Program-made: the position numbers and the translations under genes | In this document: in pieces, positions 13,103 through 59,820 of the stretch | Layout of the letters: every line of letters begins with the position of its first letter | Numbering within the stretch: position 1 is the first letter of the stretch | Assembly (NCBI RefSeq): GCF_019974155.1 | Contig: NZ_AP025158.1 | Coordinates: forward strand, 868,001-932,000 | Direction: 5' to 3' | Source: Thermus thermophilus | GTDB lineage: Bacteria > Deinococcota > Deinococci > Deinococcales > Thermaceae | Length of the DNA stretch: 64,000 nucleotides | The notes under the pieces: generated by a model | What the model was told of the DNA's origin: nothing | The model's database searches: none | Seen by the model: only the letters and a program-made list of their open reading frames with translations

Positions 13103-13108
13103 GCCTGT

Positions 13109-32661: not shown

Positions 32662-32672
32662 CCTCCCACCTC

Positions 32673-34403
32673 CTACTCCGCGAGAAGCCGCCTTGCCTCG
32701 CAACCCTCCAGGAAGGTCCGGACCCTTTCTGGGGGCACCTTGGGCCTCCGCCAAAAGTCCAGGAGGCCGTTCTCCTCCTGGAAGGTGTCGTAGAGCTGGG
32801 TGTAGCAGAACCCGCTCAGGCGGCTCCCGCACGCGGTTTCCAGGTAGCGGAGCACCTCCCGCAAGAAGGCCTCCTCGTCCTCCGCCTCCCGGTACCCCCA
32901 GCCCGGGCCGGGCCCCTTGAGCCTGAGCCCTCCGAACTCCGAGAGGAAGGGGCGCACCCCTGGAGGAAGGCCCGCCAGGGCGAGGGGGCGGCCCATGGGG
33001 GCCTCGGGGAGGCCTTCCCCGTACCTACGGGCCAGGACCTCCGGAGGAGCGTAGTCGTGCACGGTGAGGAGGTCCCAAAGGGGTCCGTGCTCAAAGCCGT
33101 CGTTGTCCACGAGGAGGCGCGTGGGGTCCAGGGCGCGGGCCAGGAGGAAGGCCCCCTGGAGGAAGGCCAGGGTCTCGGCCCGCCAGGGGGTGAGGCCCCA
33201 GCCCTCGTTGAAGAGGATCCAGGCCACCAGGCTAGGGTGGTTCCGGTCCCGCTCCAGGGCCTCGGCGAGCTCGGCGAGGTAGCGCCGGGCCGCCTTGGGG
33301 GAGAAGCGGAAGAAGCTCGGCATCTCCGCGAAGACGAGGAGGCCGAGCCGGTCCGCCAGGTGGAGGTAGCGGGGGTCCTCCACCTTCTGGTGCTTGCGCA
33401 CCCCGTTGAAGCCCAGGGCCTTGGCGAGCGCCGCGTCCCGCCGGAGGGCGGCGAGGCCCGGGGGCGCGAGGTGGCCTTCGGGCCAGAGCCCCTGGTCCAG
33501 GACCAGCCTGGGAAAGTAGGGCTCCCCGTTGAGGAAGAAGACCCCTTTCCGGGCGGCCACCTCCCTGAGCCCCCCGTAGCTGTAGACCTCGTCCAGGACC
33601 CGCTTCCCGGAGCGGAGGCGGAGGCGTAAGGGGAAGAGGACGGGGGTTTCCGGCCGCCAAAGGAGGCCTTCCGGGTTCCCCCTCGCGGGGAGGCCGAGGA
33701 ACCCGGAGGCCCTCCCCTCGAGGAGGGGGAAGCGGGCCTCCAGCCAGGGCTCCTCCCCCGGGGGGGTCTCCCCTCTCACCCCGGGGAAGAGGGCCACCTC
33801 CACCGCCTCCCCCTCGCCCCGGGCCTGGACCTCGAGGTGAAAGCCCAGGGCCTTGAGGTCCGGGGTGAGGCGCAGGGAGGCGATGTGGCTTTCCGGCACC
33901 CACTCCAGCCAGACCGGTTGCCAGATCCCGGTGGTGCGGGGGTAGAAGATGCCCCCGGGCTCCCCCAGGGCCTGCTTGCCTCGGGGCGCCTCCGGGTCCA
34001 GGGGGTCGTCCTCGGCCCGCACCAAGACCTCCATGGGCCTCCCCAGGAAGGGAGTGAGGTCCAGGCCGAAGGGGGTGTGCCCTCCCTCGTGCTCCAGGAC
34101 CCGCACCCCGTTCACGAAGACCTCCGCCCGGTAGTCCACGGCCCCGAAGCGGAGGAAAAGCCGCCGTCCCGGCCGGGGCCTTGCCCGCAGGACCTTCCGG
34201 TACCAGGCCACCCCCACCCAGGCCTCCCCGACCCCGCTTCCCGGGGCCTCGGGGGGAAAGGGGACGAGGATTTTCCGGTTAAACCGCACCCCACCGGGCG
34301 CCTCGGCCTCGCTTAGGGCGAAGTCCCAGTGGCCCTCGAGGCTCCGCCAGCCGGGGCGCTGGAGGGTGGGCCTGGGGTGGTTGGGGTCCAGCCGCATCCT
34401 CAC
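32673..34403 (-). CDS. Glycoside hydrolase family 2 enzyme (beta-galactosidase/glucuronidase-like)
   Basis: 576 residues. The N-terminal segment HPRPTLQRPGWRSLEGHWDFALSE ... WYRKVLRARPRPGRRLFLRFGAVDYRAEVFVNGVRVLEHEGGHTPFGLDL is a typical GH2 sugar-binding domain. The barrel carries FNGVRKHQKVEDPRYLHLADRLGLLVFAEMP, the acid/base in ILFNEGWG, and a candidate nucleophile in LSEFGGLRL. The GTG at 34403 overlaps the transporter stop (GTGA); ATG 34397 is an alternative. Distinct from the longer GH2 downstream. Confidence 0.82.
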   Translation of the reverse strand: MRMRLDPNHPRPTLQRPGWRSLEGHWDFALSEAEAPGGVRFNRKILVPFPPEAPGSGVGEAWVGVAWYRKVLRARPRPGRRLFLRFGAVDYRAEVFVNGVRVLEHEGGHTPFGLDLTPFLGRPMEVLVRAEDDPLDPEAPRGKQALGEPGGIFYPRTTGIWQPVWLEWVPESHIASLRLTPDLKALGFHLEVQARGEGEAVEVALFPGVRGETPPGEEPWLEARFPLLEGRASGFLGLPARGNPEGLLWRPETPVLFPLRLRLRSGKRVLDEVYSYGGLREVAARKGVFFLNGEPYFPRLVLDQGLWPEGHLAPPGLAALRRDAALAKALGFNGVRKHQKVEDPRYLHLADRLGLLVFAEMPSFFRFSPKAARRYLAELAEALERDRNHPSLVAWILFNEGWGLTPWRAETLAFLQGAFLLARALDPTRLLVDNDGFEHGPLWDLLTVHDYAPPEVLARRYGEGLPEAPMGRPLALAGLPPGVRPFLSEFGGLRLKGPGPGWGYREAEDEEAFLREVLRYLETACGSRLSGFCYTQLYDTFQEENGLLDFWRRPKVPPERVRTFLEGCEARRLLAE

Positions 34404-35653
34404 TCCTTGACCTCGTGGGGGAAGAGGGCGGTGAGGGCGTAGGCGAGGAGGATGGCCGTTCCGGGGACCACCGCCCCTAGGAAGCGGAAGGCCGCCTCGG
34501 GGTTCGGCCCCGGGTTCTCCCCGCTCACGTAGCCGAAGAGGGGCGTGAGGAGGGCGAAGGAAAGCCCCACCAGGGCGCCCGCGGCCCGGCCCAAAAGCCC
34601 CACCAGGCTGTAGTAGGCCCCTTCCCTCCGGGTTTCCGTCCGCTCGGCGTCCAGGTCGATGACCTTGGCCATCACCACCTCTCCCGTGACCCGCACCCCG
34701 GCGAACCCCGCGCCCACCAGGGCCCCGGCGAGGAGGGCCGCGGGGAGGCTTTGGGGCAGGAAGAGGAGGAGGGTCGCGAGGCCCATGAGGAGGTGAGCCA
34801 GCCGCCAGGCCCGCTTGCCTCCCCAGACCCCCGCCAGGCGCCCCCAGAGGAGGGCGGAGGGGAGGGCTGCCAGGAAGACGGCGGCGAAGAGAAAGGTGGT
34901 GGCCCCTTCCTCCAGTCCCAGGGCGTGCTTGGCGTAGAAGGGGATGGCCGTTTGGAGCACCATGCGCCCGAACTCAAAGAGGAGGCCCACGAGGGCCACC
35001 ACCCAGAAGGCCCGGTTGGCCAGGACAAGCCGGAAGGAGGCCCAAAGCTCCAGGCCGCTTCCCGCCCGGGGGTCCTCCCGGATCCCGGGGAAGAAGTAGA
35101 GGAAGGCCAAAAGGGCAAGCCCGGCGAAGAGGAGGGCCATGCCGAAAAACCCCACCCGGGCGTAGACCATGGGGGCGAGGGCGATGCCGAGGATGAGGCC
35201 CAGAAGCTCCGCCCCCCGCTTCAAGGCGGCGGCCTCGGCCCGCTCCTTGAGGCCCCGGAACATCTCCGGAAAGAGGGCCCCGTGGTTGGTCCAGACCACG
35301 GTGGCCATGGTCTCGTAGAGGAGGATGGCCAGGGCGAAGTAGTAGGGGAGGACGGCCGGGGAGCGGGCCCAGTCGGGCACCCAGAAGACCAGGAGGTAGG
35401 CGAGGAGGAAGAGGGGGACGCCGAGGAGGAGCCAGGGCCGCCTCCGGCCCCACGGGGTCTTGGTGCGGTCCGAGAGGTGGCCGAAGAGGGGGTCGTTCAC
35501 CGCGTCCCAGAGGGCGTAGGCCGTCCGGGCCAGGGCGTAGAGGGCGGCGGAGAGGCCGAGCCTCTCCAGGTAGAAGAAGGCGAGGTAGGTGCCGAAGCTC
35601 TCGGAGACGAGGGTCAGGCCGAGCTGTCCCGAGGCGTAGCGCCACTTCCTCAT
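34400..35653 (-). CDS. GPH-family glycoside/sugar transporter
   Basis: 417 residues, about twelve hydrophobic spans. Family motifs include SESFGTYLAFFYLERLG, WDAVNDPLFGHLSDRTKTPWGRRRPWLLLG and YYSLVGLLGRAAGALVGL. It belongs to the Na+/H+-linked glycoside-pentoside-hexuronide carriers. ATG 35653 follows AAGGAGGCGGGGACG. It shares 82 identical bases near its 3' end with the broken paralogue at 25,847-25,928. With that paralogue disrupted, it may be the only working importer of the operon. Confidence 0.88.
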   Translation of the reverse strand: MRKWRYASGQLGLTLVSESFGTYLAFFYLERLGLSAALYALARTAYALWDAVNDPLFGHLSDRTKTPWGRRRPWLLLGVPLFLLAYLLVFWVPDWARSPAVLPYYFALAILLYETMATVVWTNHGALFPEMFRGLKERAEAAALKRGAELLGLILGIALAPMVYARVGFFGMALLFAGLALLAFLYFFPGIREDPRAGSGLELWASFRLVLANRAFWVVALVGLLFEFGRMVLQTAIPFYAKHALGLEEGATTFLFAAVFLAALPSALLWGRLAGVWGGKRAWRLAHLLMGLATLLLFLPQSLPAALLAGALVGAGFAGVRVTGEVVMAKVIDLDAERTETRREGAYYSLVGLLGRAAGALVGLSFALLTPLFGYVSGENPGPNPEAAFRFLGAVVPGTAILLAYALTALFPHEVKE

Positions 35654-35666
35654 CGTCCCCGCCTCC

Positions 35667-36461
35667 TTAAAAAAGGACCTCCCGCACCGCGCGCCAGGTG
35701 AGGGGGTGGAACTCGGCGAGGACCCGGCGCACCTCGGGGTGGGAGAGGGCGAAGTAGTCCGCTTCCCGCGTCGGCCAGTCGGGGAGGGCCCGGCCCTCGG
35801 GGGTGGGCAGGGCGCTGTGGTGGACCAGGTAGTAGAGGCCCGGGGGGAGGTGGGCGAGGCCCAGGTAGAAGCCGAGCCGCTCCTCCGGGGGGAGGCCGTA
35901 GGGGTCAAGGAAGCGCACCCGGGGGAAAGGGGCCGTGTAGAGGAGGCGCTCCAGCTCGGAGAGGAACAGAGGGGGGACGCCGAGGCCCTCGAGGCTTTCG
36001 GGGACGAGGGGCACGAGCCGGTAGGCCTGGGCCAGGCGCAGGTAGACCTCGGCGAGGTCGGGCCTTAGGACCGCTCCCTGGTGGGTGTCCAGGTGGGTGG
36101 GGGAGAAGAGCCTCCTCGCCGCCTCGATCTGGGCGCAAAGCTCCCGCTCCACCTCCTCGGCGCGGGCCTTGCGCCAGAGGGCCTCGAGGCTTTCCGGGAA
36201 GTAGCCCGCCTCGTCCCTGAGGCTTTCCCCCTCGGTGAGGGGGCGCATCCTGGGGGCGGGCCACTCGCTGGTGAGCACCAGGTGCACCCCTAAGTCCTCC
36301 CCCTTGACCCCGCTCGCCCAGGCCCCCGGGACCATCACGCTCCCCGTGGGGAGGCCCAGGGCCTGGTAGGCGCCGTTTTGCGCGTGGCTTAGGCCCAGGT
36401 CGTCGTGGTGGAGGATGAGGACCCGCCGCCCTCCGAGTCCGAGCCGCTCCAAAAGGTCCAC
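35667..36461 (-). CDS. YdjC/ChbG-like carbohydrate deacetylase
   Basis: 264 residues from GTG 36461, chosen because AAAGGAGG lies six bases upstream. The metal site motif is VLILHHDDLGLSHAQNGAYQAL (HHDD), with LGVHLVLTSEW and FSPTHLDTHQGAVLRPDLAEVY supplying further ligands. The family removes acetyl groups from N-acetylated sugars or oligosaccharides. First gene of the glycoside operon, which suggests that the imported material is acetylated. Confidence 0.85.
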   Translation of the reverse strand: MDLLERLGLGGRRVLILHHDDLGLSHAQNGAYQALGLPTGSVMVPGAWASGVKGEDLGVHLVLTSEWPAPRMRPLTEGESLRDEAGYFPESLEALWRKARAEEVERELCAQIEAARRLFSPTHLDTHQGAVLRPDLAEVYLRLAQAYRLVPLVPESLEGLGVPPLFLSELERLLYTAPFPRVRFLDPYGLPPEERLGFYLGLAHLPPGLYYLVHHSALPTPEGRALPDWPTREADYFALSHPEVRRVLAEFHPLTWRAVREVLF

Positions 36462-36490
36462 GGAAAACCTCCTTTCCCCGCCTGGCTTCC

Positions 36491-36496
36491 ATTCTA
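36491..36496 (-). promoter_or_regulatory. Possible -10 box for the glycoside operon
   Basis: TAGAAT on the minus strand, about 30 bases before the GTG of the deacetylase gene. No convincing -35 was found. Confidence 0.35.
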
Positions 36497-36568
36497 GCCT
36501 AAGCGGCTGCACGTTGATTTCGCAACACGGGTCGCCCGAAATAAGGCTTGGGAAGGTCCTTTTGGGGC

Positions 36569-36641
36569 CCCCACCGCGGCGAAAGCCGCGGTGGGGTACT
36601 TAGGTTCCCCCTCTCCCTCGTGGCGGCTCCGTAGCGGAGCC
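36569..36641. other. Two adjacent hairpins, possible IS200/IS605-type end remnant
   Basis: The first hairpin has perfect 12-bp arms (CCCCACCGCGGC and its complement, 36,569-36,580 and 36,585-36,596) closed by a GAAA tetraloop. The second has 7-bp arms (36,625-36,631 and 36,635-36,641). No T-tract follows on either strand. On the minus strand the preceding bases read KAFSALGKDVKPSRAGLR, reminiscent of a decayed TnpB C-terminus. That attribution is weak. Confidence 0.4.
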
Positions 36642-36709
36642 CCGCTCTAGAGGGCTTCACGTCCTTCCCGAGGGCGGAGAAAGCTTTTCCTGCCCGCCGT
36701 CGGGGGTCC

Positions 36710-37305
36710 TTAGGGAGTAGACCCTCCTTCCAGAAAGTGGTCCAGGAGCGCCGCCGTTTCCCGGGTGATGGGCGCTTCCAGAAGCCGCCGGGCAAGGCCC
36801 GGCGGCACCCGGGGCCCGAAGAGATGGGGAAACGCCGCCCCGCTCTCCAGAAGCCCCCCAGGCGGGCAAGGGGCATGGGGGGCTCCACCTTCAACGTCCG
36901 CGCCCCCACCCTTAAGAGGCGAAACTTCGCCCATCCAAGCTCCGGGGCCTCCCGTGGGGCGCACAGGTGGACTTCTCCCTCTCCCCAGGGAAGGACGAGG
37001 GGCGTTCCTCCAGGGCAGGGGTTGTGGGGGTTCCGGAAGGGGTTCGCCTCCAGGAGGGCGGCGAAGAGGAGTTCGGGAAGCTTTAAGGAGACCCCCTCGG
37101 GCAGAAGCCCGAAGGCGAACCCCTCCCTCTCCAGGTCGTAGGCCAGGACGGGAAGGCGCCCCCTAAAGGGCTTCCCCGCAAGCACGCCCCGCTCCTCCCG
37201 GGCGGGGAGGAAGCGGAAAAGGAGCCCCAGCCTGGCCCAGAAGGGGAGAGGGGGCCAGGGGGTGGAGGAAAGGCGGGAGGCCTCGCTCAGGAAAAAACGA
37301 GCCAA
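36710..37305 (-). pseudogene. Unrecognised gene interrupted by a frameshift
   Basis: Starting at TTG 37305, a plausible coding frame (FWARLGLLFRFLPAREERG ... LPVLAYDLEREGFAFGLLPEG ... PGGTPLVLPWGEGEVHLCAP) runs to MPLARLGG near 36,860. Good sequence then continues one frame over (LLESGAAFPHLFGPRVPPGLARRLLEAPITRETAALLDHFLEGG) to a stop at 36710. One extra G in the GGGGGG run would join them into about 197 residues. No family recognised; no signal peptide. It overlaps the end of the small membrane-protein gene. Confidence 0.5.
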
Positions 37306-37445
37306 AGGACGGCCAGGTCGCTCCAGCGAAACACCACCTTGCCGAGGTTCAGAAGGGCCGCGGCGAAGAGGAGCAGGGGGACCACCAGGGTCTGCCTTCC
37401 CTCTTTGTTCCGCAAGACCAGGCGAAGTTTGCGCCGAGCGCGCAC
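37287..37445 (-). CDS. Small membrane protein, 52 residues
   Basis: GTG at 37445 opens a frame with a basic N-terminus (RARRKLRLVLRNKEGRQ) and a hydrophobic stretch (TLVVPLLLFAAALLNLGKVVF), ending WLVFS. TAGAAT (complement of 37,452-37,457) lies six bases before the GTG, the leaderless pattern seen elsewhere in the window. Function unknown; it overlaps the start of the next unknown gene. Confidence 0.5.
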   Translation of the reverse strand: MRARRKLRLVLRNKEGRQTLVVPLLLFAAALLNLGKVVFRWSDLAVLWLVFS

Positions 37446-37527
37446 GCCTTTATTCTAGGCCGGTTCCGGACCGATGGGGCAAGCTTTTTGGGACCAGCTC
37501 AAAAGTCGCGTGTTGGGGCCGCCCCGA

Positions 37528-38463
37528 TCAGGCCGGTTCCCAGAACCCGTCCTCACGGATGCGCCAGCGTAGCTCTGGCGGGATCGTGCCCGGTGTCCAG
37601 GCCAGGCCCCGGCTCTTGAGGCCTCCTCTGCCGGGTGCGTTGTCCCACACCGCAACGCACTCCCGGGAACCTTTGAATTCGCCTTGATCACCGCCCGCGA
37701 ACCCGTGGGCCAAGAGGAGTCCGGGCCTGTCTACAACAGGGTCGTTTTGGTTGGGGTCTACTTGGACATCCCATAGGGAAGCTTTTGCTTCTTGGCTCCG
37801 GTGCACGAGTTCTATCCTGCCGAGGCCGTAGCGGAGTTCCCCGCCCACGAAGACCTCGAGCCCCTTTTCCTCAAGCAGGTACTTCTTTGCCTCCTCCTCC
37901 ACAGGAGTAGCCTCCCGGTTGGCCTGGGCCTCGAGGCCCCCGGGGGAGGCTGAGCCCTTAGAGGAGTCCGGCAGGTAGAGAACATAACCCACCAGGAACA
38001 CCTCCCGGGGCTCTTCCCCGGCGAACCAGGGGTGGATGACCTCCACCTCCCTAAGGGTGCCGTCGGAGGCGGTATCGCTTCCCGGGTCTATGGCCGTGCT
38101 GGTGCGGGTGGAGAGGAGCTTCATCCGGAAGCGGCGGTCCGGGATAGAATCCTCTCTACCCTCGCGTTGCCAAACCAGGCCCTGGCCTTCCTTGTAGCGG
38201 GGTAGCCAGGCAAACCACTTGTCCCCTTCCCGCTCGGCAGGGAAGAGGTAGGTGAGGCGGAACCGGGAGTCCAGGGCTTGGGTGGCCTTCTGGTACGCGG
38301 AAGGACCTACGCCCAACTTGCCGGCGAGCGCGTTGATCAGCGCTCCCCGGAGGGTATAGGCGGGCACGTAGAGCCGGGTGCGGTTGAGGGAACCCGCGGG
38401 CGCGGTCCCCAGATGCAAGGGCGAGCGAAGCCGCCACACCCAGCGGTAGAGCTCCCACTTCAT
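37528..38463 (-). CDS. Type III CRISPR RAMP protein (Cmr6/Cmr3-like)
   Basis: 311 residues. RAMP features: LRSPLHLGTAPAGSLNRTRLYVPAYTLRGALINALAG near the N-terminus and the glycine-rich loop GELRYGLGRIELV at about residue 210. A C-terminal extension (WDVQVDPNQNDPV ... GRGGLKSRGLAWTPG) follows the loop. Last gene of the effector operon; ATG overlaps the cmr5 stop. It may be Cmr6 or the Cas5-group subunit; sequence alone does not settle which. Confidence 0.75.
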   Translation of the reverse strand: MKWELYRWVWRLRSPLHLGTAPAGSLNRTRLYVPAYTLRGALINALAGKLGVGPSAYQKATQALDSRFRLTYLFPAEREGDKWFAWLPRYKEGQGLVWQREGREDSIPDRRFRMKLLSTRTSTAIDPGSDTASDGTLREVEVIHPWFAGEEPREVFLVGYVLYLPDSSKGSASPGGLEAQANREATPVEEEAKKYLLEEKGLEVFVGGELRYGLGRIELVHRSQEAKASLWDVQVDPNQNDPVVDRPGLLLAHGFAGGDQGEFKGSRECVAVWDNAPGRGGLKSRGLAWTPGTIPPELRWRIREDGFWEPA

Positions 38464-38831
38464 GCGGCGCCCTCGTCTCTAGCTTTCACGTGGTATCGGG
38501 CGTAGGCTAAGGCCGTGCGCAGGAGGTCGCGGGCGAAGAGGAGCTTGTCCAGATCCTCCGAAAGCTTCTTTACCGCCTCCAGGATGTCACGGGTCTCCTG
38601 GAGCTCTTTCGCGAACACGTCCTTCAAGAAGGCCAAGGACTTTTCTGCCATTGGGCCCGCCACCTTTTCTTGCCTCGCCTTGAGGTAAAGGAACATGGCG
38701 TACGGCCCCTGTTCCTCCAAGACGGCGAGGGCTGCGTTGAGCACTTTCTCTTCTATAGGCTTGCCCCGTTGGTCCCGGACCGAGGCCAGCTGTCGCCCCA
38801 ACTCGGCACACCGGATGTCCAGGTTCATCAT
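38460..38831 (-). CDS. cmr5: Cmr5-like small subunit of the type III effector
   Basis: 123 residues, all-helical. LRTALAYARYHVKARDEG at the C-terminus and the helical ALAVLEEQGPYAMFLYLKARQEK segment match Cmr5 (Cas11 group). It would form the inner filament of the complex. The first of two adjacent ATG codons overlaps the cmr4 stop. Codon use is less GC-biased than in the cobalamin genes. Confidence 0.8.
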   Translation of the reverse strand: MMNLDIRCAELGRQLASVRDQRGKPIEEKVLNAALAVLEEQGPYAMFLYLKARQEKVAGPMAEKSLAFLKDVFAKELQETRDILEAVKKLSEDLDKLLFARDLLRTALAYARYHVKARDEGAA

Positions 38832-39248
38832 GGCTGGCCACCCCCTCCTTGGCCTGCGGGTGAACCGTTGCAGGGCGGAACGGGTCGGCCCTCGTACACC
38901 ACCTTAACCCGCCCCATACCACGGGTGCCCATGCCGCCGATGCCCAGGTGCTCCAGGTAGGGGTGGGCTTTCTGGGCTACCTCGTGAACCCCTTGCGGGT
39001 CAGAGACCGCCGTAATCTTTTGCCCGCTAATCTGGAAGTGGGCAGGGTTCTTGGCGATGATCTCCCACACCAGCACCGTGCCCCGCGGCAGGGCCTCATA
39101 GGAGAACAGCGCCCCCTCCTCTGCCGCCCCGGTTTCCGGGTTGATGGAGACGGAGGTGCGCACCTCCAGGTTGCTGTTGACGATGTGGGAGAAGAGACTG
39201 TCGGGCACGAGGGCAAGGCGGGATTGGATGTATTCCGGAACGCACAAC

Positions 39249-40173
39249 TCATGCCTTCGTGTGCTACCTCATAGCTCCACCCCGGCCATCCTGAGAAGCA
39301 CCCGGCTACGTATGAGGTTGTGAACGAGCAGGATGAGATTCACCCGGGCCACCAGCCCCCAGTAGGACCGCGCTTCTATCCGATGAAGCCCCAAAGACCG
39401 CACCATCACGCTAAACCGCGTCTCAATCCAGTTCCGTACCCTCCCCATCCACTCTTTCCATCCCGTCTCCACCACCGTTCCTCCCCTGACCCGATAGGGT
39501 GGCGTCTTGACCCCCTGGACCCAGCGAAAGCCCCGGTCCCCCAAGACCGCGGGCAGACCGTCCAGCAGGTCCCTCCCCCAGGTCTCCCGGGCATTCCCGG
39601 GGAGGATAGCCCAACGAAAAAAGAGGCCGCGCTCGTTCATCACCGGCATGAGAACGTAGCCCGCGAAAGCCCCCAGGGGGCCCACCCCCACAGCGGCCTC
39701 AGGAAGGTCCAAGCCGTGAATCCGGTGGCCGTGGGCCAGGGGGATGGGTTTGAGGTCCACCACCTGCAGAAGACCTTGCCCTCCGGAGAGCCTTATGGCC
39801 AGGTGAGCCAACAACCCCTGAGCCTTCTGAAGGACCCGGTAGAAGCGGGAGAGGTGGGGGAGGGAGGGGAAGTAGGCCTTGAGGGTGGTCTTGGCGGCCA
39901 GGTAGCCTTTGGCGAGGTCCTGGCCTTGCAACAGGACGAAGATGGCGAGGGTCAAGAGCTCGGCCAGGGTGGCCTTCTGGTGCTTTTGCTTTGGGGGGAG
40001 CTTGAATCCTTGGGCCTGCAGGGCTTTCAGTTCGTCATCTACCCAGACGTAGATAGCCACGAGAAGGGTCTCTGCGTCAAGATGGTAAAGGGGGTGCTCA
40101 CGATCTTGCCGCATGGCACCCCCTCTTTTTTCACACCCCGGGGGTCCAGATCAAGTAGCACACGAAGGCATGA
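39249..40173 (-). mobile_element. 925-bp insertion sequence in cmr4 (IS982-like, tentative)
   Basis: Bounded by 21-bp inverted repeats with one mismatch (TCATGCCTTCGTGTGCTACC at the left). No direct target duplication can be seen, and the flanking gene joins in frame when exactly these bases are removed. Contains one transposase gene on the minus strand. Confidence 0.8.
39269..40114 (-). CDS. DDE transposase (IS982-like)
   Basis: 281 residues. Candidate DDE residues lie in LLQVVDLKPIPLAHG, AVLGDRGFRWV and RNWIETRFSVMVRSLGLHRIEARSYWGLVARVNLILLVHNL, the last resembling the C-terminal motif of IS982-type enzymes. The frame is complete and the gene nearly fills the element. Family assignment is tentative. 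Confidence 0.7.
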   Translation of the reverse strand: MRQDREHPLYHLDAETLLVAIYVWVDDELKALQAQGFKLPPKQKHQKATLAELLTLAIFVLLQGQDLAKGYLAAKTTLKAYFPSLPHLSRFYRVLQKAQGLLAHLAIRLSGGQGLLQVVDLKPIPLAHGHRIHGLDLPEAAVGVGPLGAFAGYVLMPVMNERGLFFRWAILPGNARETWGRDLLDGLPAVLGDRGFRWVQGVKTPPYRVRGGTVVETGWKEWMGRVRNWIETRFSVMVRSLGLHRIEARSYWGLVARVNLILLVHNLIRSRVLLRMAGVEL

Positions 40174-40800
40174 AGTTTCTGCTTTATTTCCCCCATATCT
40201 CTTTTTTCCACCGGCAACAGGAGCCACCCCAGATTCAGCTGGTTATCGGAGCCTTTCTGGAGATAGACCTTGTTGCCGTCCACACCCTGGATGTCCGGGT
40301 AGATGGGCCGAAGCGCCATGGGCCCCGTCACCCACATGGGCCCCTGCCGGGTGGGGACGGGGAAGAGGAGCACATGGGCATCGGTGAAGGCGGCCAGACC
40401 GGCGAAGCCGCCCTCCTGGCCCGCGCCGCGGGCGAAGCCGAAGACAGTGCATACCGGGCAATCGGGCCGGCCGCAGTGACCGCGTCGGTACTTTTTCTCT
40501 TCTTCCGTTCTGGCCTGGTTTTCTTTAGGTTGCCCCAGGCCAGCACAATTTGGGTAAATCGGCCATTCTTTACCGTCAACCTGGCGATTGGGGGTCCTTT
40601 CGTGTTCCGCCATCGCCACGTAGGTCCGGTACACCCCCGCCAGGCTGGAGCCGGGGATCTTGGGCACCTGGGTGGCCGGGTCGCGCACGATGGTCAGGTC
40701 CACCCGGCCGATGCGGGCACCACCGGCGCCCACGTGGATGGGATCCAGGGCAAGGCCGATCTGGACAAATTTTGCGTAACTTGTCATGGCTGCGCCTCCT

Positions 40801-43779
40801 TTACAGGCTCTCTTTCAATGCGGTCATATGCCAATCCAGCGCCCATTGCAGCACGCCGTCTACGGCAGCCGCAGTAAGCGCCTCAAACGCAGCGCCGTGC
40901 ACGCCCAAATGGTGCGCCAGGACGCTGCGCAGGGTTTCCTCCCATAGCTCCGGCGAGGCCTCCAGGCGGCCATCGGCCGATCGCCAATCCTTTTCCAGCC
41001 GGGCCAGTTCGCTTCGCAGGCGCTGGAGCGCGGTCTGGCTGGGGGCTACCCGTTGGAGGAGCCTCCACACCTCCCGCATGGCGGTCCAGTCTTCCAGGTA
41101 GCGTGGAGGAGTGACGTCAAAGCGGGCGGCGGCGCTTTCCATGAAGAGGGTCTTCACCCGAGCGGGGAAGACCTTGAAACCATCCCCTGGCCGCAGATCG
41201 GTCACGTGGCGGTAGACTTGCCCGTTGGGGTGTTGGAAGTCTTTGGGGAAACGGGGCTTCGGGTCCTCCACGGCAACGTAAGGATAAAAGACGTCCGGAC
41301 GGCCGTCAGGGAGGTCTACCGGGACCATCCGGAGGGTTTCACGGCCGTCCTTGCGCTGCAGGCGCAAGGCGACGGCCCCACCAGCGCGCTCTACCTCCCG
41401 AACCTGCCAGGTTTCCCCGCCCTCCGCGAGAGCATCCTCCACGTTGCGGGCCGCTTCCACCACCGCTTGGTAGGGCACAAGGAGCGGGAAGCCGATCACC
41501 CCTACGCGGAGGGGGAGGCGGTCCCACACGCGGGCGAAACGCTCCTTCCACCAGGCGAAAGCCAGGTCCACGCACCCTGACGCCGCCTCCAGGGGCACCA
41601 GCACCCGGAAGCGCAGGGGAGAAACCTCCAAGGGAATCACGGGATGGTAAACCCCCAGGTGCCCGTAAGACTGCGGCCGGTTAATGACCCTATCCACGGT
41701 CATATTCCGGTGCTGGCTAGGTGTATCTTCGTCTTCCAGCGAGATGTTGGCATTCTGAAAGACGTCCATCCCCTCCTCCGCCCGCAGAAGCCTCGCCAGG
41801 TTAGAGGCGGTTACGAATCCTCCTAAACTCCCCACGTAGAGCAGGCTGATCGGCTGTCCTCGCCAGTGGCCGTTGTAGAGGGTGAGGTCAGACCAGCCGC
41901 TTGGATCCTGGGGCTTCAGCACCAGGCGGCGTATCCGCCAAGGGTTTTCGTTGCGGGAGGCCAGCTGACGGAACTCTCTCAGAAGGTCACGGAAGAACTC
42001 CTCCGCCTCCCGCCAGAAGCGGTAGACCCGGCCGGGGGAGGGGAGCTTGCGGAAGAGCTGATGGGTTAGCCAGACGGCGCGTTGGTCGTCGTTCAGAGTC
42101 CCCCAAGAAGGCGCGTCCGCGCGGTCTTCAACAACCTTTTGGAAAAAAGACTGCCAGTCCTTTTCGTGTCGGTAGCTCTCTTGCAAGTTCTTTAACACTG
42201 GGTCCTTCGGGTCAAAAGAAGCAAGTTTACCTTTCACATAGGTCGTCAAGCTTCCATAAGGCCGTTGCGGATCTACTGGATTAGGGGTGCCATCAAGCCA
42301 AGGATTGAACCGCACCCATTCTGGAATCGCCTGTGCCCGCAGGCTGTCCACCCGTTCGCCGCTGAGCCAGTCTTCCAGGTCCAGCGAGAAGGTGAGGAGG
42401 GCCAGGCGGCTGTTGCGGTCGGCCACCTCCTCAAACCAGACGGTGTCGTTGCCCATTTTGCCCTGGAGCCAGGCGTCGCGACGGTGATGGCGGCGCTCCC
42501 GGCAGACGGCGCAGGGCTTGCCCTTGTTGGTGGGGTCGCCGTTGAGCCGCACCCCACAGACCGGACACACGTGGCCACGGGCTTCAGAAGGCATTAGCCA
42601 GCGGATATTCCACGGCTTGTGGACGGGGATGGCCACCGTGCTCCTCGCTCTCTTCCACTCCCGCACCATGGGCACCAAGGAGCGGGTAGGATGGCTCAGG
42701 CGCACATGGGGTGGGGTTTCCAGGTCAAGATCAAGGGCGATTTTGTCCGCCTGTTCTTGTAGCCACTGCTCCCATCCATTCAGCCAGCTAGCCTGCACTG
42801 CCTCATCAAACCGTTCACCGGGGAAGGAGAAAACGACCACTGCGCCGTCCCGGTAAAGCAAGGAGCCTACGGCCAGGTCTACCTCCACCAGTTCGGCTAT
42901 CCTGGAGAAGAATTCCATGATCGCGCCCTGGGCGCCCGTCCAGTCGCCGATCTTCACCGAGCGGGCCTCGTAGTGCTCGGTGCCGATGGCCACGGTGAGC
43001 AGACGCCAGCGGGTCTTTTGTTTGATGTCGTCGTCTGGCCAGGGGAAGCTACTGTTTAGTAGTGCCCCAGCCACCGCGCTCTTGAACAGGGCCGCGGCCA
43101 CGTAGGACTGGTCCCAAAGGGTCACGTCGTTGTTGGGCAACCGCGTCTCGGCCAGGGTGGAAAGAAAAGCCCGGCGGATGAAAGACCCTTCGCCGATGGC
43201 GCTCTCCCGCCAGCGCCGCCAGAGGGCCACATCTTGGACATTTTGCGTGCCCAGGTCGCGCAGTTCCTCCAGCACCCGGCGGATTTCGCCCACCAGCCGG
43301 CGCCAGCCCTGCGGCGAGAGGATCTCCGGCGGGTCGGCCAGCAGGTTGCGCTTGGGATACCCCCAGGGAGAGGAGAGCCACATGTGAGGGGCATATTGCT
43401 TGAGGTATTCGGACGTGGAACCTGGCAGATTCTTTTCCACGCCGGAGACGATGCCGTGCCCGGCCTGGAGGAGCCCTAACAGGCCGGGGTCTTGCCCCGC
43501 GTGTTTTTCGGTAAAGTCGGCAAACGTGTTCGGCCAGGCCTTAGAAATGCTGGCGCTGTAATACCGCCGTACCCAATCCAGCAGATCATCCCAGGGGAAA
43601 GGAGGCGTTTCCTGCTTGTGCCATTGGCGCTCCTGGTAGTCGTTGCCCTCGCCCCCCTGGCGGCGCAGGAATTCGGCCCGGGCCTTGCCGGCCATGTGGA
43701 ACCAGCCGATGGCCTCCACGGCCAGGAGCAGGGGCCGGTATTGGCGCAAAGTTTCGGCCGGAGAGAAGGTAGTGCTCAT
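40801..43779 (-). CDS. Cas10-like large subunit without HD or GGDD active residues (Csx11-like)
   Basis: 992 residues in Cas10 order. The N-terminal region has WFHMAGKA (27-33) where an HD motif would read HD-GK, and LWDQS (221-225) where a second His is usual. Palm-like domain 1 ends LLYRDGAVVVFSFPGE (307-322). A four-Cys treble clef follows (C405, C408, C423, C426). Palm-like domain 2 starts LALLTFSLDLEDW and has YVGSLGGF (648-655) where GGDD is expected. Such inactive-palm Cas10 proteins are known in subtype III-C (Csx11), so this is III-C-like. It should neither make cyclic oligoadenylate nor cut DNA. Overlaps the upstream RAMP stop as ATGA. Confidence 0.78.
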   Translation of the reverse strand: MSTTFSPAETLRQYRPLLLAVEAIGWFHMAGKARAEFLRRQGGEGNDYQERQWHKQETPPFPWDDLLDWVRRYYSASISKAWPNTFADFTEKHAGQDPGLLGLLQAGHGIVSGVEKNLPGSTSEYLKQYAPHMWLSSPWGYPKRNLLADPPEILSPQGWRRLVGEIRRVLEELRDLGTQNVQDVALWRRWRESAIGEGSFIRRAFLSTLAETRLPNNDVTLWDQSYVAAALFKSAVAGALLNSSFPWPDDDIKQKTRWRLLTVAIGTEHYEARSVKIGDWTGAQGAIMEFFSRIAELVEVDLAVGSLLYRDGAVVVFSFPGERFDEAVQASWLNGWEQWLQEQADKIALDLDLETPPHVRLSHPTRSLVPMVREWKRARSTVAIPVHKPWNIRWLMPSEARGHVCPVCGVRLNGDPTNKGKPCAVCRERRHHRRDAWLQGKMGNDTVWFEEVADRNSRLALLTFSLDLEDWLSGERVDSLRAQAIPEWVRFNPWLDGTPNPVDPQRPYGSLTTYVKGKLASFDPKDPVLKNLQESYRHEKDWQSFFQKVVEDRADAPSWGTLNDDQRAVWLTHQLFRKLPSPGRVYRFWREAEEFFRDLLREFRQLASRNENPWRIRRLVLKPQDPSGWSDLTLYNGHWRGQPISLLYVGSLGGFVTASNLARLLRAEEGMDVFQNANISLEDEDTPSQHRNMTVDRVINRPQSYGHLGVYHPVIPLEVSPLRFRVLVPLEAASGCVDLAFAWWKERFARVWDRLPLRVGVIGFPLLVPYQAVVEAARNVEDALAEGGETWQVREVERAGGAVALRLQRKDGRETLRMVPVDLPDGRPDVFYPYVAVEDPKPRFPKDFQHPNGQVYRHVTDLRPGDGFKVFPARVKTLFMESAAARFDVTPPRYLEDWTAMREVWRLLQRVAPSQTALQRLRSELARLEKDWRSADGRLEASPELWEETLRSVLAHHLGVHGAAFEALTAAAVDGVLQWALDWHMTALKESL

Positions 43780-44681
43780 GGCGTACCTCCTGCGGAAAGC
43801 CAGGCTTGCACTTCTCGCTCAAGGTCGGCGCGGTTGTCCTTCTCCACGGTGCCTTCCGTCTTGTGAAACGCGCGCCACTTCAGGATTTTTGCCGTTCCCC
43901 AACCCACCGTGCGCTTAGCGGAGATGCCGTAGGTGGTGAGCAAGGCCTCAACGGCCTCAAACAGTTTCGGTAAGACTTCCTCGGCTTTCACCGCGGGCTT
44001 CATTCCCGGCCAAGGCGCGTAGAGGAGCGAGAGCGTGCCCTGTGCTCCAGGCGGCACCACTTCGTAGTAAATAGGCTGGGTGCCGGCGCGGCGCTCCCGG
44101 CTGTGGGGGTTGATGACCTCAAAGCCGATCTTGTTGAACCAAGTGGGGTAGAAGACCAGCGCGCCTCGGCTGAACTCCTCACCTTCACCCTTTTCGTTTC
44201 CGAAGAGATGCCATTCCCAGGCTTTGGCTTGCTTGAGTTTTCCTTCGTCGGTTTCTTGTTCCGGTCCGACCAATTTTTTTGTGCACATTCGGAAGGCCCA
44301 GCGCAGCATCCCTTTCCAGGACGAGGCGGCCATGAAAGGCACCCCGAAGACCCGGTCCTTGCACACCGGGTTGTCCAGCAGGTGAAAGACGCGGTCGTCC
44401 TTGGAGTACCAGGGGGTGAGGAGTTCAAAGTCTACCTGAAGGGCAACCCAGGTGGAGGAGGGGAGAGATGAGAAATCGGGTGCATTTTCTGAAATTATTT
44501 CAGGTAACCTGATATCACCATTTGCACCTTCCATATAGCGGCGACGCGCACTTTCTTTATCCCCCTGGAAGAAACGCACCGATACCTCATCCACAAAGCC
44601 GCCCGAAAGTCCCTCGGGGCGCGCCAGGGTTTCTTGCTCGCCAGGGTTATCAGATAGAGCAACAAAATAATCCCACGTCAT
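43776..44681 (-). CDS. Type III CRISPR RAMP protein (second gene of the operon)
   Basis: 301 residues, ATG 44681 with GGAGGGG upstream. RAMP features: LLTPWYSKDDRVFHLLDNPVCKDRVFGVPFMAASSWKGMLRWAF, and the glycine-rich TVGWGTAKILKW near the C-terminus. A mid-section NPHSRERRAGTQPIYYEVVPPGAQGTLSLLY resembles Cmr6/Cmr1-group proteins. It lies between cmr1 and cas10, the place of a Cmr6- or Cas5-group subunit in III-C-like operons. Precise group not decided. Confidence 0.75.
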   Translation of the reverse strand: MTWDYFVALSDNPGEQETLARPEGLSGGFVDEVSVRFFQGDKESARRRYMEGANGDIRLPEIISENAPDFSSLPSSTWVALQVDFELLTPWYSKDDRVFHLLDNPVCKDRVFGVPFMAASSWKGMLRWAFRMCTKKLVGPEQETDEGKLKQAKAWEWHLFGNEKGEGEEFSRGALVFYPTWFNKIGFEVINPHSRERRAGTQPIYYEVVPPGAQGTLSLLYAPWPGMKPAVKAEEVLPKLFEAVEALLTTYGISAKRTVGWGTAKILKWRAFHKTEGTVEKDNRADLEREVQAWLSAGGTP

Positions 44682-44692: not shown

Positions 44693-45682
44693 CTATTGGA
44701 ATAGTTGCTTTATAATTTGCCTGCCTTTTAGAAACTCCCTATCTGGATCAAATGAGGCCCACGCTGGATCCGGTTGCCTGCCGTTCCCATCACCGTCTCT
44801 CAGAATGCGTAATTTCTCAACAATTTGTGAAAACTCCTCTTCGTCCTGCACAAAACCGAATGTCCTCGGAGGTTCTTTGAAGCTAAAGACTTTCTTGCTC
44901 TCCGGCTCAATACCTAATTGCCGATTAGGGCGTCTTCCAGCCAGCCAGGAATCACCCTGTGAGGATTGGTTTTTAGGTTCCGGACGACCAATAACAAAAT
45001 TGAAAGAGCTGGTATCAGTATCTTGCCTCGCCAGATACCGCCCCTTCACACACCAGAAGTTTTGCAGCGAAGCCCATGAAAAAGCGCTATCACTGAAATT
45101 CTTGCGCCACCGTGCATCGCGCACATATTCTGCAATTGCTCGACTACAACCAACCCCTTCCGGACGCTGCTCAATGGTTACAAGGCCAAAGTCTTTGTGA
45201 TGCAAGACGTTCTCGCGTCCTGGCTCATCCGACGGCTTGAACACCGTCTTTCCGCCGATAGCGCCGTAATCCGCGATCAGGCGCAGGGTGGCATCCAGCA
45301 GGCACCACTCCTCCGGGGCGATGGGCCGCAGGGGGATGAAGCGCAAGACGAAGGTCTGACCTGCCCGGATCTGGTTCTGGATGACCTGGCCCTTGTCGTC
45401 CAGAACCATCAGCCGGAACTTGCGTGCCCATCCGGTGCAACCAAAGAGCTCGCAAACTACGCAGTGGTGGCCACCTTCGTGCGGTTTTTTGTTATCACCC
45501 GGGCAACGTACGTTTTCGGCTGTAGGGTCGCACGCTTTTCCCCCCAATCCGCGCACCAGGACCTCAAACCACCAGCGCAGGGAGCCCATGAGCCCCGTGG
45601 GTGTAAGGCGGTCTCCCTTTCGTTCCCTGTCTCCCGTCCATATGTCCGTTAGGGCTTTGAGCTTCCACTCCTTGGGCTCCAT
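44693..45682 (-). CDS. cmr1: Cmr1-like RAMP protein
   Basis: 329 residues from ATG 45682. The Cmr1 pattern is WKLKALTDIWTGDRERKGDRLTPTGLMGSLRWWFEVLVRGLGG, then HHCVVCELFGCTGWARKFRL. Further cysteines at CPGDNKKP may bind zinc with these. An in-frame upstream extension exists but lacks a better start; the promoter at 45,739-45,767 lies inside it. The gene is visibly AT-richer than the cobalamin genes, suggesting a separate origin. First gene of the type III operon. Confidence 0.83.
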   Translation of the reverse strand: MEPKEWKLKALTDIWTGDRERKGDRLTPTGLMGSLRWWFEVLVRGLGGKACDPTAENVRCPGDNKKPHEGGHHCVVCELFGCTGWARKFRLMVLDDKGQVIQNQIRAGQTFVLRFIPLRPIAPEEWCLLDATLRLIADYGAIGGKTVFKPSDEPGRENVLHHKDFGLVTIEQRPEGVGCSRAIAEYVRDARWRKNFSDSAFSWASLQNFWCVKGRYLARQDTDTSSFNFVIGRPEPKNQSSQGDSWLAGRRPNRQLGIEPESKKVFSFKEPPRTFGFVQDEEEFSQIVEKLRILRDGDGNGRQPDPAWASFDPDREFLKGRQIIKQLFQ

Positions 45683-45738
45683 AAACTCTTTGCGACCCTC
45701 CCTAAGAAGAACTGCGGCGATAGGATGGTTTTGCCGGA

Positions 45739-45767
45739 AGTGTAGCCTGAAGTCTCCCTTTACGCAA
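45739..45767 (-). promoter_or_regulatory. Promoter of the type III effector operon
   Basis: Minus strand TTGCGT (45,762-45,767), 17-base spacer, TACACT (45,739-45,744), about 56 bases before the cmr1 ATG and just beyond the leader-distal end of array 1. Confidence 0.5.
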
Positions 45768-45794
45768 GCCCCCCTCCGCAAAAGGACCAGAGGA

Positions 45795-47913
45795 GTTTCG
45801 AACCCTCATAGGTACGGTCAAAACTAGGAGCCGCACGGCGTAAACCCCGGGTACGGCTTGGGGTTTCAAACCCTCATAGGTACGGTCAAAACTGGGAGCG
45901 GCGGCGTAGGCGGGCAGTATGGCGGCGGACTTGTTTCAAACCCTCATAGGTACGGTCAAAACTCCGGGGCGGTGGTGTAGTTGGCCCTTTGAGGTCGCTT
46001 GGTTTCAAACCCTCATAGGTACGGTCAAAACAAACGCCCCGCTCAGCGCCCTGAGCGCCTGCTCGGCCTGTTTCAAACCCTCATAGGTACGGTCAAAACC
46101 TTTAGTCAGCTCCGCACCACCCTGGACCCGCTTCTGTTTCAAACCCTCATAGGTACGGTCAAAACAGGAAAGAATTGCACGGTGGCTGAACGAGCGGAAC
46201 GTGTTTCAAACCCTCATAGGTACGGTCAAAACTTCCCGGCGCAGGTCCTCGGAGGTACCGAGCGCGTCAAACGTTTCAAACCCTCATAGGTACGGTCAAA
46301 ACGCCCCGAGTTCCAGGCGTACGGCGGCAGGCAGAAAAGTTTCAAACCCTCATAGGTACGGTCAAAACGGTACATCTCTTGGGCTCAAAGGGTGGTAAAG
46401 CGCCGTTTCAAACCCTCATAGGTACGGTCAAAACATGGCCCTGCCGGAGCTTCGGCGGGCCATTAGGGAGGTGTTTCAAACCCTCATAGGTACGGTCAAA
46501 ACTTTTCGAGGGGGGAGAAATGAAGTTGAGAGACTATGTTTCAAACCCTCATAGGTACGGTCAAAACCCGCAAGTACGTGGTGAGCGGGCTGCAGGTGAG
46601 CCCGGGGTTTCAAACCCTCATAGGTACGGTCAAAACTCTCACCCCCTTTCAACCTCATACGACTGCCATTATAGGTTTCAAACCCTCATAGGTACGGTCA
46701 AAACATTTCCCGGGCATGGAGCGTATGCAGGGCTGTTCGCCTGGTTTCAAACCCTCATAGGTACGGTCAAAACCCGCCCCGCACAAAGGGCTCAAGGATG
46801 AGGGAGAAGAAGTTTCAAACCCTCATAGGTACGGTCAAAACCCTCCCGGGCTAACAGCGTACGGGGTGGGCCACCCCGTGTTTCAAACCCTCATAGGTAC
46901 GGTCAAAACCCCGGCTCGGCATACGCCGTTCCGAGGCTCTAGGTTTCAAACCCTCATAGGTACGGTCAAAACCAGGGAAGCGCAGACGAAGTTAGCCCAG
47001 ACGAACCAAGTTTCAAACCCTCATAGGTACGGTCAAAACCACGGGTTAGGGCGCGGCCGCAAAACTCCCGGAGTATGTTTCAAACCCTCATAGGTACGGT
47101 CAAAACCGCCCACCTGTGGCTTGGGGGTCCAGATGGACCAGAAAGTTTCAAACCCTCATAGGTACGGTCAAAACGCGTGCGGGACCTGAGCGAGCTGGAC
47201 GTCCCTTGGGAGTTTCAAACCCTCATAGGTACGGTCAAAACCTTCCCCCTCCACGAGCCCCACCAAACGACAGGCCTCAGGTTTCAAACCCTCATAGGTA
47301 CGGTCAAAACCCCGATGGCCTCCTCCAGGGTGTAGGGGCCTTCCCGCGTTTCAAACCCTCATAGGTACGGTCAAAACTGAGAGGGGGGTAGACCTCCTTC
47401 ACCTCCTCGCGTTTCAAACCCTCATAGGTACGGTCAAAACACAACTGGAGGGCGGTGGTTATTACCGATGAAGAGGGGTTTCAAACCCTCATAGGTACGG
47501 TCAAAACGCGTGTATGGCGTCCCCAGCGTGGCGGTGGCAATCAGGGGTTTCAAACCCTCATAGGTACGGTCAAAACGGGCGAGGCGCATCCTCGTCCCTG
47601 AGGGCGGGTTTTAGTTTCAAACCCTCATAGGTACGGTCAAAACCGGGGCGTATGTGGCCGACAACCCCTCGGAGGAGGCCATGTTTCAAACCCTCATAGG
47701 TACGGTCAAAACCAAAAAATCGGGGGGATCACGTTCCATTTTCTGTCCAGGTTTCAAACCCTCATAGGTACGGTCAAAACTCGCCCGGGCCCACTCCTCC
47801 TCCGTCCGCCTGAGGAGGTTTCAAACCCTCATAGGTACGGTCAAAACGCCACCGCGTGCGGGTAGCCCTGCGCTTGGAGACGGGTTTCAAACCCTCATAG
47901 GTACGGTCAAAAC
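45795..47913 (-). CRISPR. CRISPR array 1, 32 repeats
   Basis: Thirty-two 30-bp repeats read on the plus strand as GTTTCAAACCC TCATAGGTA... and on the transcribed minus strand as GTTTTGACCG ... GTTTGAAAC. Thirty-one spacers of about 36-40 bp. The leader is at the right end. The leftmost (leader-distal) repeat carries an A-to-G change (GTTTCGAACC), as expected at the old end. The last bases GTTTGAAAC would give the crRNA 5' handle. Same repeat as array 2. Confidence 0.97.
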
Positions 47914-48055: not shown

Positions 48056-49224
48056 CTGAGCTCTCATCACTTTGAGGGCTGGGGCTTGACAAGGGAAGAG
48101 AAGAGGGGGGTAAGTAAGGTGTGCCGCCCACCACCCCCCTTTCCCAAGTTATCACCCTCTGGGTCCATAAGGTCTTCGCCTCCCTCAGGAAAACCATCCG
48201 CTCCAACCTCGCCCTCTTCCTGTCCACCCTCCTCACTACCCCCCTGGACCCCACCCTCTCCGACCTCGCCCGCAGAACCCCCCTCCCCACCCTGGCCCAA
48301 AGCCGCCTCAATCGCCTCTGGCGCTTCCTCCATCACCCCACCCTGCAAGACCCCTGGGCCCTCACCGAAGCCCTCCTCCCCCTCCTCGTCCCTCGTTTCC
48401 CCAAAGACCGCCCCCCCCCTCATCGTGGACTGGACCTTCACAGAGGACGGTAGGCACCAAGCCCTGGTGGCCGCCCTTCCCCTCAAGGGAAGGGCCCTGG
48501 TGGTGGCCTTCGCTCTTCACCCCCTCTCCCCTTTCCCCAGTCAAAACCGGGTGGAGGAGGAGTTCCTCCACCGCCTGGGCCGCGCCGTCCAGGACCTGGG
48601 ATATACCCCCTCTTCCTCCTGGACCGCGGCTTTGACCGGGTCTCCCTGATGCGAAAGCTCCAGGGGTGGGGCATGGGCTTCCTCATCCGCCTGCGGCAGA
48701 ACCGGGAGGTGGAACCCCAAGGGGGAAGCGCCTTCCCCTGAAGGAGGGCTACCAGCGTGTGGTCCACCCCCTGCGGGAGGAGGTCCGCCTTTTCGGACAC
48801 GGTGGGGAGGGGGTAGAAGTCACCCTCCTGGTGTACCCAGGGGGTCGGGATCCCTGGTATCTGGCCTATTCGGGCCCTTTTGGGGGGAGCCGCCCTATGG
48901 GTGGCGGATGTGGATTGAAGAGGGGTTTAGGGACCTGAAGGGGCAGGGGTTTGGGCTGGACCGCCATCGGCTGCGGACGGGGGCGAGCCTCAGGGGGTGG
49001 TTATGGCTTCTGGCCTTGGGGATGGCGCTCTTGGTCCTTCTGGGGGCGCGCTTGCAGGGCAGGGAATGGCTTCCCCGGCTTCTGGCCCATCCCGAGCGGC
49101 AAAGCCTCTTCCGTCTGGGCCGGATCGCCCTGGCCCAGGGGCCCCCGCCTTGGAGGGAAGCAGTGGTGGAGGAGCTGGTCAGGTTGCTTCAGGAACTGGG
49201 GGGAGGAAAGTGATGAGAGCTCAG
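48056..49224 (+). mobile_element. IS4-like insertion sequence, copy 3 (frameshifted)
   Basis: 1,169 bp with the same 18-bp ends and a 9-bp target duplication CCCCGGGTT (48,047-48,055 and 49,225-49,233). Relative to copy 1 it lacks five bases, all in C or G runs (near 48,415, 48,608, 48,723 and 48,885), so the transposase is split into fragments and is a pseudogene. It lies within the array 1 leader. Confidence 0.92.
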
Positions 49225-49278: not shown

Positions 49279-50262
49279 TCAGCGCAGGCGGTAGGGGGTG
49301 TAGGGCTGTTCCCCAATCAGGTGCTTTTCCAGCTTGTAGAGCTCCAGGCGCAAGGTGGTCCTGTAGGAGACGGCCCGCCTCAAGGCGCGGTGCTGGTAGG
49401 TGGTCTGGAGGGTCTTCTCCCACTCCTCCACTACAAGCCTCCTTCCCGCCTCGGAGAGGAAGACCCCTTCCCCCTCTCGGAGGAAGTGCCCCGGCTTCAC
49501 CTGCCCCCTGCGCACGAGGCGGAAGACCAACCGGTCGGCGAGGACGGGCCTGAACACCTCGGCCACGTCCAGGTTGAGGGAGTGGCGACGGTAGTTGGCC
49601 TCGTGCAGGAAGCCGATGCGGGGGTCCAGGTGGGTCTGGTAGATCTGCGCCAGGATGGCCGTGTAGAGGAGGGAGTTGGCGAAGCTCAGCAGGGCGTTGA
49701 TGGGGTCCCTGGGCGGCCTTCGGGAGCGCTCCAGGGCCCAAGCCTCTCCCAGGAGGGCCTCCCAGGTTCGGTAGTAGGCCTCCCGGGCCCTGCCCTCCAG
49801 GGCCATGAGTTCTCCCACGCTTTGGGCCTCTCCTACCTTGGCCAAAAGCTCCTCCAGGAGTTCCAGGGTGGCCTCGAGGCCCTCCCCCCGGGCCTCCTCC
49901 CTGCGCAGGAGGCGGAGGACGTTCCCCAGGCCCCCCTCCACGAAGCGGCGGGCCAGGTCCAGCCTCTTCCCGCCGTCCAGGTAGTGCTCCGCCTGGCGCA
50001 GGGTGAGGTAGCCGCTCAAGAGGTGCTCCCGGGGGTAGAAGGAGCCCACGTAGTAGCCGAAGCGGTTGAAGAAGTGGAGGAGGATCCCTTTTTGCGCGAC
50101 GAACTCCAGGAAGCGCTTGTTCAGGTCCACCTCGCCGAAGAGGTAGAGCTCGGACACCTGTTCCACCGGGAGGTGGCGCTTGCGCTCTTCCGTTTCCAGG
50201 ACGATGGTGTTGGCCCGGCGTCCCAGGCGCCCCGAGGAGAACACGTACACCGGCTTAGCCAT
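49279..50262 (-). CDS. cas1: Cas1 integrase
   Basis: 327 residues from ATG 50262 (GGAGGAG upstream); stop overlaps the leader end by almost nothing. Typical Cas1 features: N-terminal PVYVFSSGRLGRRANTIVLE ... VSELYLFGEVDLN, the metal-binding Glu in LMALEGRAREAYYRTW, INALLSFANSLLYTAI, and GFLHEANYRRHSLNLDVAEVFRPVLADRLVF with the catalytic His and Asp. It integrates new spacers with Cas2, whose gene lies at the opposite end of the island. Confidence 0.95.
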   Translation of the reverse strand: MAKPVYVFSSGRLGRRANTIVLETEERKRHLPVEQVSELYLFGEVDLNKRFLEFVAQKGILLHFFNRFGYYVGSFYPREHLLSGYLTLRQAEHYLDGGKRLDLARRFVEGGLGNVLRLLRREEARGEGLEATLELLEELLAKVGEAQSVGELMALEGRAREAYYRTWEALLGEAWALERSRRPPRDPINALLSFANSLLYTAILAQIYQTHLDPRIGFLHEANYRRHSLNLDVAEVFRPVLADRLVFRLVRRGQVKPGHFLREGEGVFLSEAGRRLVVEEWEKTLQTTYQHRALRRAVSYRTTLRLELYKLEKHLIGEQPYTPYRLR

Positions 50263-52998: not shown

Positions 52999-53003
52999 GG
53001 TCC

Positions 53004-53040
53004 TTGGGCTAAGGATAGGGAAGTGCTACAATTCAGACAA
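53004..53040. promoter_or_regulatory. Face-to-face promoters of cas3 and cas6 operons
   Basis: Plus: TTGGGC (53,004-53,009), 17 bases, TACAAT (53,027-53,032), ten bases before cas6 ATG. Minus: TTGTCT (complement of 53,035-53,040), 17 bases, TATCCT (complement of 53,012-53,017), before cas3 ATG. The two promoters interleave within 37 bp. Confidence 0.55.
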
Positions 53041-53041
53041 G

Positions 53042-59783: not shown

Positions 59784-59788
59784 ACAGA

Positions 59789-59820
59789 TTGTTGACAAAA
59801 TCGTTGACTTCTTCTACCCT
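59789..59820 (+). promoter_or_regulatory. Promoter and candidate GntR operator of the catabolic operon
   Basis: TTGACA (59,792-59,797), 17 bases, TACCCT (59,815-59,820). The palindrome TTGTTGACAA (59,789-59,798) covers the -35, and GTTGAC recurs ten bases on. FadR-type regulators bind such short palindromes, and one is encoded in the operon. Confidence 0.5.

Follow-up and report, generated by a model that had tools for sequence, protein, structure and literature searches.

Gene content of the III-C locus

The window, a 64,000-nt stretch of the Thermus thermophilus contig NZ_AP025158.1 (positions 868,001–932,000), carries on its minus strand an operon in which the Cmr1, Cmr6, Cmr4, Cmr5 and Cmr3 profiles are all matched, Cmr4 in two pieces. 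The operon starts with cmr1 (44693–45781; Cas7 family RAMP; TIGR01894, E 3e-15), whose start codon is uncertain, relatives starting further downstream, and continues with cmr6 (43776–44681; Cas7 family RAMP; PADLOC Cmr6, E 1e-72) and cas10c/csx11 (40801–43779), a single open frame that encodes a 992-aa large subunit without an HD or GGDD motif. The interrupted cmr4 follows, and then cmr5 (38460–38831; Cas11 small subunit; PADLOC Cmr5, E 3e-31) and cmr3 (37528–38463; Cas5 family; PADLOC Cmr3, E 3e-65). The PADLOC Cas10c model spans residues 9–989 of the large subunit (E 5e-110), and the Csx11 model TIGR02682 matches it with 247.1 bits (E 4e-73), just below the curated cut-off of 248.95. On these profiles we assign the protein to Csx11/Cas10c, the large subunit of CRISPR subtype III-C, and because the Cas10c match is accompanied by Cmr1, Cmr6, Cmr4, Cmr5 and Cmr3 neighbors in the III-C order, the locus as a whole is III-C. 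This bears out the first-pass annotation, which had called the locus III-C-like and had proposed the Csx11 profile search. The same gene order is seen at the related loci L006, L059, L060 and L105/L002. Relatives were also sought in viral contigs and in phage genomes, with no hit in either.

The interruption of cmr4, which the earlier annotation did not record, is caused by an IS982/IS5-like insertion sequence of 921 bp (39251–40171, minus strand; transposase at 39269–40114, NF033520, E 3e-20). Alignment to intact Cmr4 shows that the 5′ part of the gene (40131–40787; TIGR02580, E 8e-19) retains about 205 native codons before it runs into the insertion sequence and stops, and the 3′ part (38828–39247; TIGR02580, E 2e-15), severed from its start, holds about 137 codons. 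The break lies inside the RAMP domain, roughly 205 codons into a gene of about 340; the intact Cmr4 proteins of L002, L004 and L059 are 343–349 aa long. The ends of the element, defined by near-identical copies across the genome, bear terminal inverted repeats of 24 nt with 92% identity (39249–39272 and 40150–40173), and no target-site duplication is visible in the flanks. Elsewhere in the genome there are six further full-length copies, nearly identical to it, and one of 842 bp, from which it follows that the element moved recently. Sequence related to it occurs in 25 of the 27 genomes of the genus examined.

The 5′ piece of cmr4 keeps D30, which aligns with the catalytic-type Asp of solved Cmr4 structures and is retained in the intact relatives, so the ancestral Cmr4 could probably cut RNA. 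In the window this residue sits in the 5′ fragment of a gene split by the insertion sequence, and the Cmr4 encoded here very probably cannot cut RNA. The first-pass suggestion that the complex would depend solely on RNA cleavage by Cmr4 thus fits the intact relatives, with their catalytic-type Asp, and does not hold for this genome. We consider it unlikely that a working III-C complex, cleaving its target RNA or only binding it, survives through Cmr4 fragments that complement each other or through the III-B Cmr4 acting in trans. In its favor, every other III-C gene has an open, full-length frame, the frame of the 3′ fragment can begin at an in-frame TTG, complementation between the fragments is conceivable in principle, and a complete III-B Cmr4 is encoded in the genome. 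However, that protein is only 26% identical to the III-C Cmr4, the last residues of the 5′ fragment are encoded by the insertion sequence, the break lies within the RAMP domain, and we know of no example of a split Cmr4. As five of the six operon genes are still open, the decay, if real, would be young.

The operon is adjoined by CRISPR array 1 (45795–47913), which has 32 repeats of 30 nt; array 2 (57759–58924) shares its repeat, with 17 copies and one degenerate one. One spacer of array 1 has 97.5% identity to the Thermus phage phiOH16, with weaker matches to Riverbug and IN93. PADLOC places a type I-B module at 49279–57317, with cas1, cas4 and cas3 on the minus strand and cas6, cas8b, cas7 and cas5 on the plus strand. 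The III-C operon has no Cas6 of its own, so it likely shares the I-B Cas6 and its crRNAs, with the I-B module as the likely source of adaptation as well.

No CARF or ring-nuclease gene was detected in 28–57 kb of the window and a few genes beyond, where two beta-galactosidase matches in the effector scan are confined to the galactosidase portion of a fused model. Elsewhere in the genome, III-A and III-B loci with GGDD Cas10s lie together with Csx1, Csm6 and Can1 genes at C1:766–790 kb, the three effector genes being about 80–100 kb from the window start. The earlier statement that no CARF or ring nuclease lies nearby is correct for the scanned interval, and elsewhere in the genome these loci would make cyclic-oligoadenylate defense possible without III-C. 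A membrane-protein gene adjoining cmr3 (36.5–37.5 kb) was considered as a III-C effector and rejected, as it is also found on 16 T. thermophilus megaplasmids, among them that of HB8, in which this CRISPR locus does not adjoin it; at 36499–37500 the window holds an out-of-frame remnant of this gene, which is intact on those megaplasmids (WP_224065257). Beyond it, a sugar-metabolism cluster (28214–36512; GH2, GH31, MFS transporter, carbohydrate deacetylase) shows synteny with megaplasmid pTT27 of T. thermophilus HB8; as it lies here on a 2.15-Mb contig, it may be a stretch of megaplasmid that has become part of the chromosome. On the other side, a VOC/dioxygenase-like gene (59645–62005) seems to be split by a transposase copy (60599–61694) of a kind also present at 48121–49213 and 26020–28010. 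A cobalamin riboswitch (Rfam RF00174) lies at 12945–13108 on the minus strand.

Motif positions in Cas10c

We aligned the Cas10c of the window with relatives encoded in Thermus, in WOR-3 genomes and on cyanobacterial plasmids. In this alignment the HD-GK position reads HM-GK (H28-M29-A-G-K32; 43684–43698, minus strand) and the LYDH/LWDH position reads LWDQ (L221-W-D-Q224; 43108–43119, minus strand), and the zinc site formed by C405, C408, C423 and C426 (42502–42567, minus strand) is invariant among the eleven members aligned. All three assignments agree with the first-pass annotation. Its broader statement that all catalytic motifs are lost is accurate for D29, which is replaced by M, and for the His after D223, which is replaced by Q, and goes too far for H28 and D223, which are still there. 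An HD-nuclease-active Cas10 would be expected to carry an HD dipeptide near its N-terminus; here HM occupies residues 28–29 and the dipeptide occurs nowhere in the protein, so by this measure the HD nuclease is predicted to be absent. The four Thermus-type proteins (window, L002, L004 and L016) all have HMAGK. Among the other members, L005/L006, L009, L010, L018 and L020 retain HD; it is lost in the remaining ones, L008 having HL, L011 HN and L013/L015 FN, and L013 and L015 also have LWDQ. On the tree used for counting HD losses these states are mixed, and the tree does not distinguish one change from two.

For the cyclase motif, the same annotation had pointed to GSLGG (residues 650–654; 41818–41832, minus strand), a site ruled out by profile–profile alignment with cyclase-active Cas10s. 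With about 30 GGDD-bearing Cas10s of Thermus and of WOR-3 genomes as the partner set, hhalign (probability 91%, E 1.1e-6) pairs VYSGGDDVLAFLP with LEVSPLRFRVLVP, so that GGDD corresponds to S720-P721-L722-R723 (41611–41622, minus strand). A smaller profile comparison restricted to Thermus Csm1 and Cmr2 gives the same register for SPLR, and the hits of the Pfam palm2 model to five III-C relatives also lie there, at the SPLR position and past it. Residue 721 is a proline in every III-C member aligned (11 of 11), which indicates that loss of GGDD is common to the family. The earlier call was thus wrong as to the residues and right as to the loss: SPLR is neither GGDD nor a known active variant, and the pattern [GASDEK][GE][DE][DE], sought across the whole protein, gave no match and no GGDD-like motif. 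With neither an intact HD nor an intact GGDD found anywhere in the protein, the result that the first-pass annotation had named as refuting its claim did not occur, and the motif alignments support the proposed non-signaling, HD-less Cas10, in agreement with the published description of III-C. A sequence search of solved structures returned no relevant one, and an AlphaFold2 model built from a two-sequence alignment has a pLDDT of 33.5 and was set aside, so the Cas10/palm fold is predicted here from the profile–profile alignment only.

Conservation of the double loss

In a published survey the cyclase site is found in no III-C, and about half of III-C keep the HD motif (PMC11229360), so the double loss is an ordinary state of a known subtype. 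Csx11 was termed an inactivated Cas10 as early as 2011 (PMC3150331), and III-C, listed in the current classification among the subtypes with an inactivated cyclase (PMC12669027), has no known effectors (PMC11229360; PMC12669027). A search of a full-text library found no paper that deals with a III-C complex or with the mechanism of Csx11. What our comparison adds is that, judged from the coding sequences, the double-dead form is retained under purifying selection. Orthologues at 70–83% identity have the same HM and SPLR states, and pairwise dN/dS of Cas10c is about 0.06–0.26 where computable, with the HD region no faster than the rest; these ratios are rough, because several pairs approach saturation at synonymous sites. 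Because HM-GK is fixed in four orthologues under such selection, the dead Cas10c was a conserved part of the complex, and the loss of both motifs under purifying selection argues that the complex has a role requiring neither DNA cleavage nor signaling.

HM-GK is shared with orthologues whose operons are intact in other bacteria, and together with the dN/dS values this indicates that the motif loss is old and that the protein was maintained. This makes it very unlikely that the locus had ceased to function even before the insertion sequence arrived, with the motif loss itself a sign of decay, although such a reading would suit the HB5018 copy, which is broken in several genes, and the presence of III-C in only one of the 27 genomes of the genus examined, that of the window. 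It is also conceivable, if very improbable in our view, that Cas10c remains catalytic through other residues. H28, H93, H108 and D223 are conserved in the Thermus clade and could form a rebuilt HD site, and E299, Y309 and D311 (first palm domain, residues 299–311; 42847–42885) are invariant in the 11 III-C members and could form a new palm-1 site; however, this conservation may be structural, and we know of no precedent for such catalysis.

One WOR-3 MAG (G134) bears on whether the complex could take part in signaling indirectly. Its Cas10c is 70% identical to that of the window and also reads HM-GK, its III-C operon is intact, and a gene for Csx15 (E 6e-39) and one for a membrane-CARF protein (E 1e-23) follow directly after cmr3 on the operon strand (L059, 786–2197). 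On another contig of the MAG, a paralogous pair (Csx15 71% and membrane-CARF 56% identical) comes after a III-B locus whose Cas10 has GGDD and is of the active type (L104, 10889–12000). Csx15 binds or cuts cA4 (PMC13148439), and ring nucleases are reported to be very few at III-C loci (PMC12409355). An arrangement like that of G134 is rare for III-C. The G134 pair may be a chance duplication in one MAG, or it may reflect a silent complex working with a signaling one. With a Csx15 ring nuclease or sponge and a membrane-CARF protein of its own, both paralogous to the III-B pair, the non-signaling complex might tune or exploit the signal of its sister system, and there is a slim chance that the dead Cas10c complex of this clade is wired in trans into cyclic-oligoadenylate defense in this way. 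Stated for the complex in general, Cas10c would bind target RNA and a III-A or III-B Cas10 would supply the cyclic oligoadenylate to CARF effectors, some of them encoded in the III-C operon, and the window genome does have III-A and III-B systems with Csm6, Csx1 and Can1. We think this improbable, as the evidence comes from a single genome, a MAG in which the pair could have arisen by chance, and neither the Thermus copies nor L002 have such genes adjoining III-C.

Probable decay in Thermus and comparison with known systems

The reading that we favor, with good confidence, is that the locus encoded a formerly functional, RNA-targeting, non-signaling III-C complex that is now decaying in Thermus. 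The intact ancestral Cmr complex would have taken up crRNAs from the neighboring arrays, cut by the I-B Cas6, and bound phage transcripts for cleavage by its Cmr4 backbone, with Cas10c as a structural subunit that had lost the cyclase motif, as in all III-C, and the HD motif, as in about half. It would neither have cut DNA nor have signaled through cyclic oligoadenylates. With cmr4 split by a recently active insertion sequence, the complex most likely neither assembles nor cuts RNA at present, and defense would be left to the I-B, III-A and III-B systems. The split cmr4, the IS-broken HB5018 copy, the presence of III-C in a single genome of those examined, and HB8, in which the genes flanking the locus are present and the locus itself is absent, make decay and loss in Thermus the simplest reading. 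III-C has been little studied, and the intact loci L002 and L059 would be good material for testing whether its complex has a role independent of DNA cleavage and signaling; the window copy would not, as its RNase subunit is split.

Among the closest known systems is the III-C locus on plasmid pHB5018b of T. thermophilus HB5018 (L004, 4644–13272), whose Cas10c is 82–84% identical to that of the window, with identical motif states, flanking genes and CRISPR repeat. There cmr4 is intact, whereas cas10c and cmr1 are cut by insertion sequences and a further one lies ahead of cmr6. The WOR-3 MAG contig L002 shares HM-GK, the gene order and a Cas10c of 74% identity; its III-C genes are all intact and are followed, unlike in the window, by a different I-B system (Cas8b with Cst2-type Cas7). 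The III-B Cmr system of the window genome (C1:772–777 kb) has a Cmr4-type backbone as well but differs in its GGDD Cas10, the Csx1 and Can1 genes nearby and the distant Cmr4 noted above. In subtypes III-F, III-G, III-H and III-I the Cas10 cyclase is likewise inactivated or lost (PMC12669027, PMC11229360), but their gene sets are different, and the window protein matches Csx11/Cas10c. It is subtype III-C with its MTH326-like Csx11/Cas10c that the locus resembles, in the nearly full-length Csx11 profile match, the Cmr1-Cmr6-Cas10c-Cmr4-Cmr5-Cmr3 operon, the lost palm-2 cyclase motif and an operon free of CARF genes, and the window departs from that subtype in also lacking the HD motif that about half of its members keep and in its IS-interrupted cmr4.
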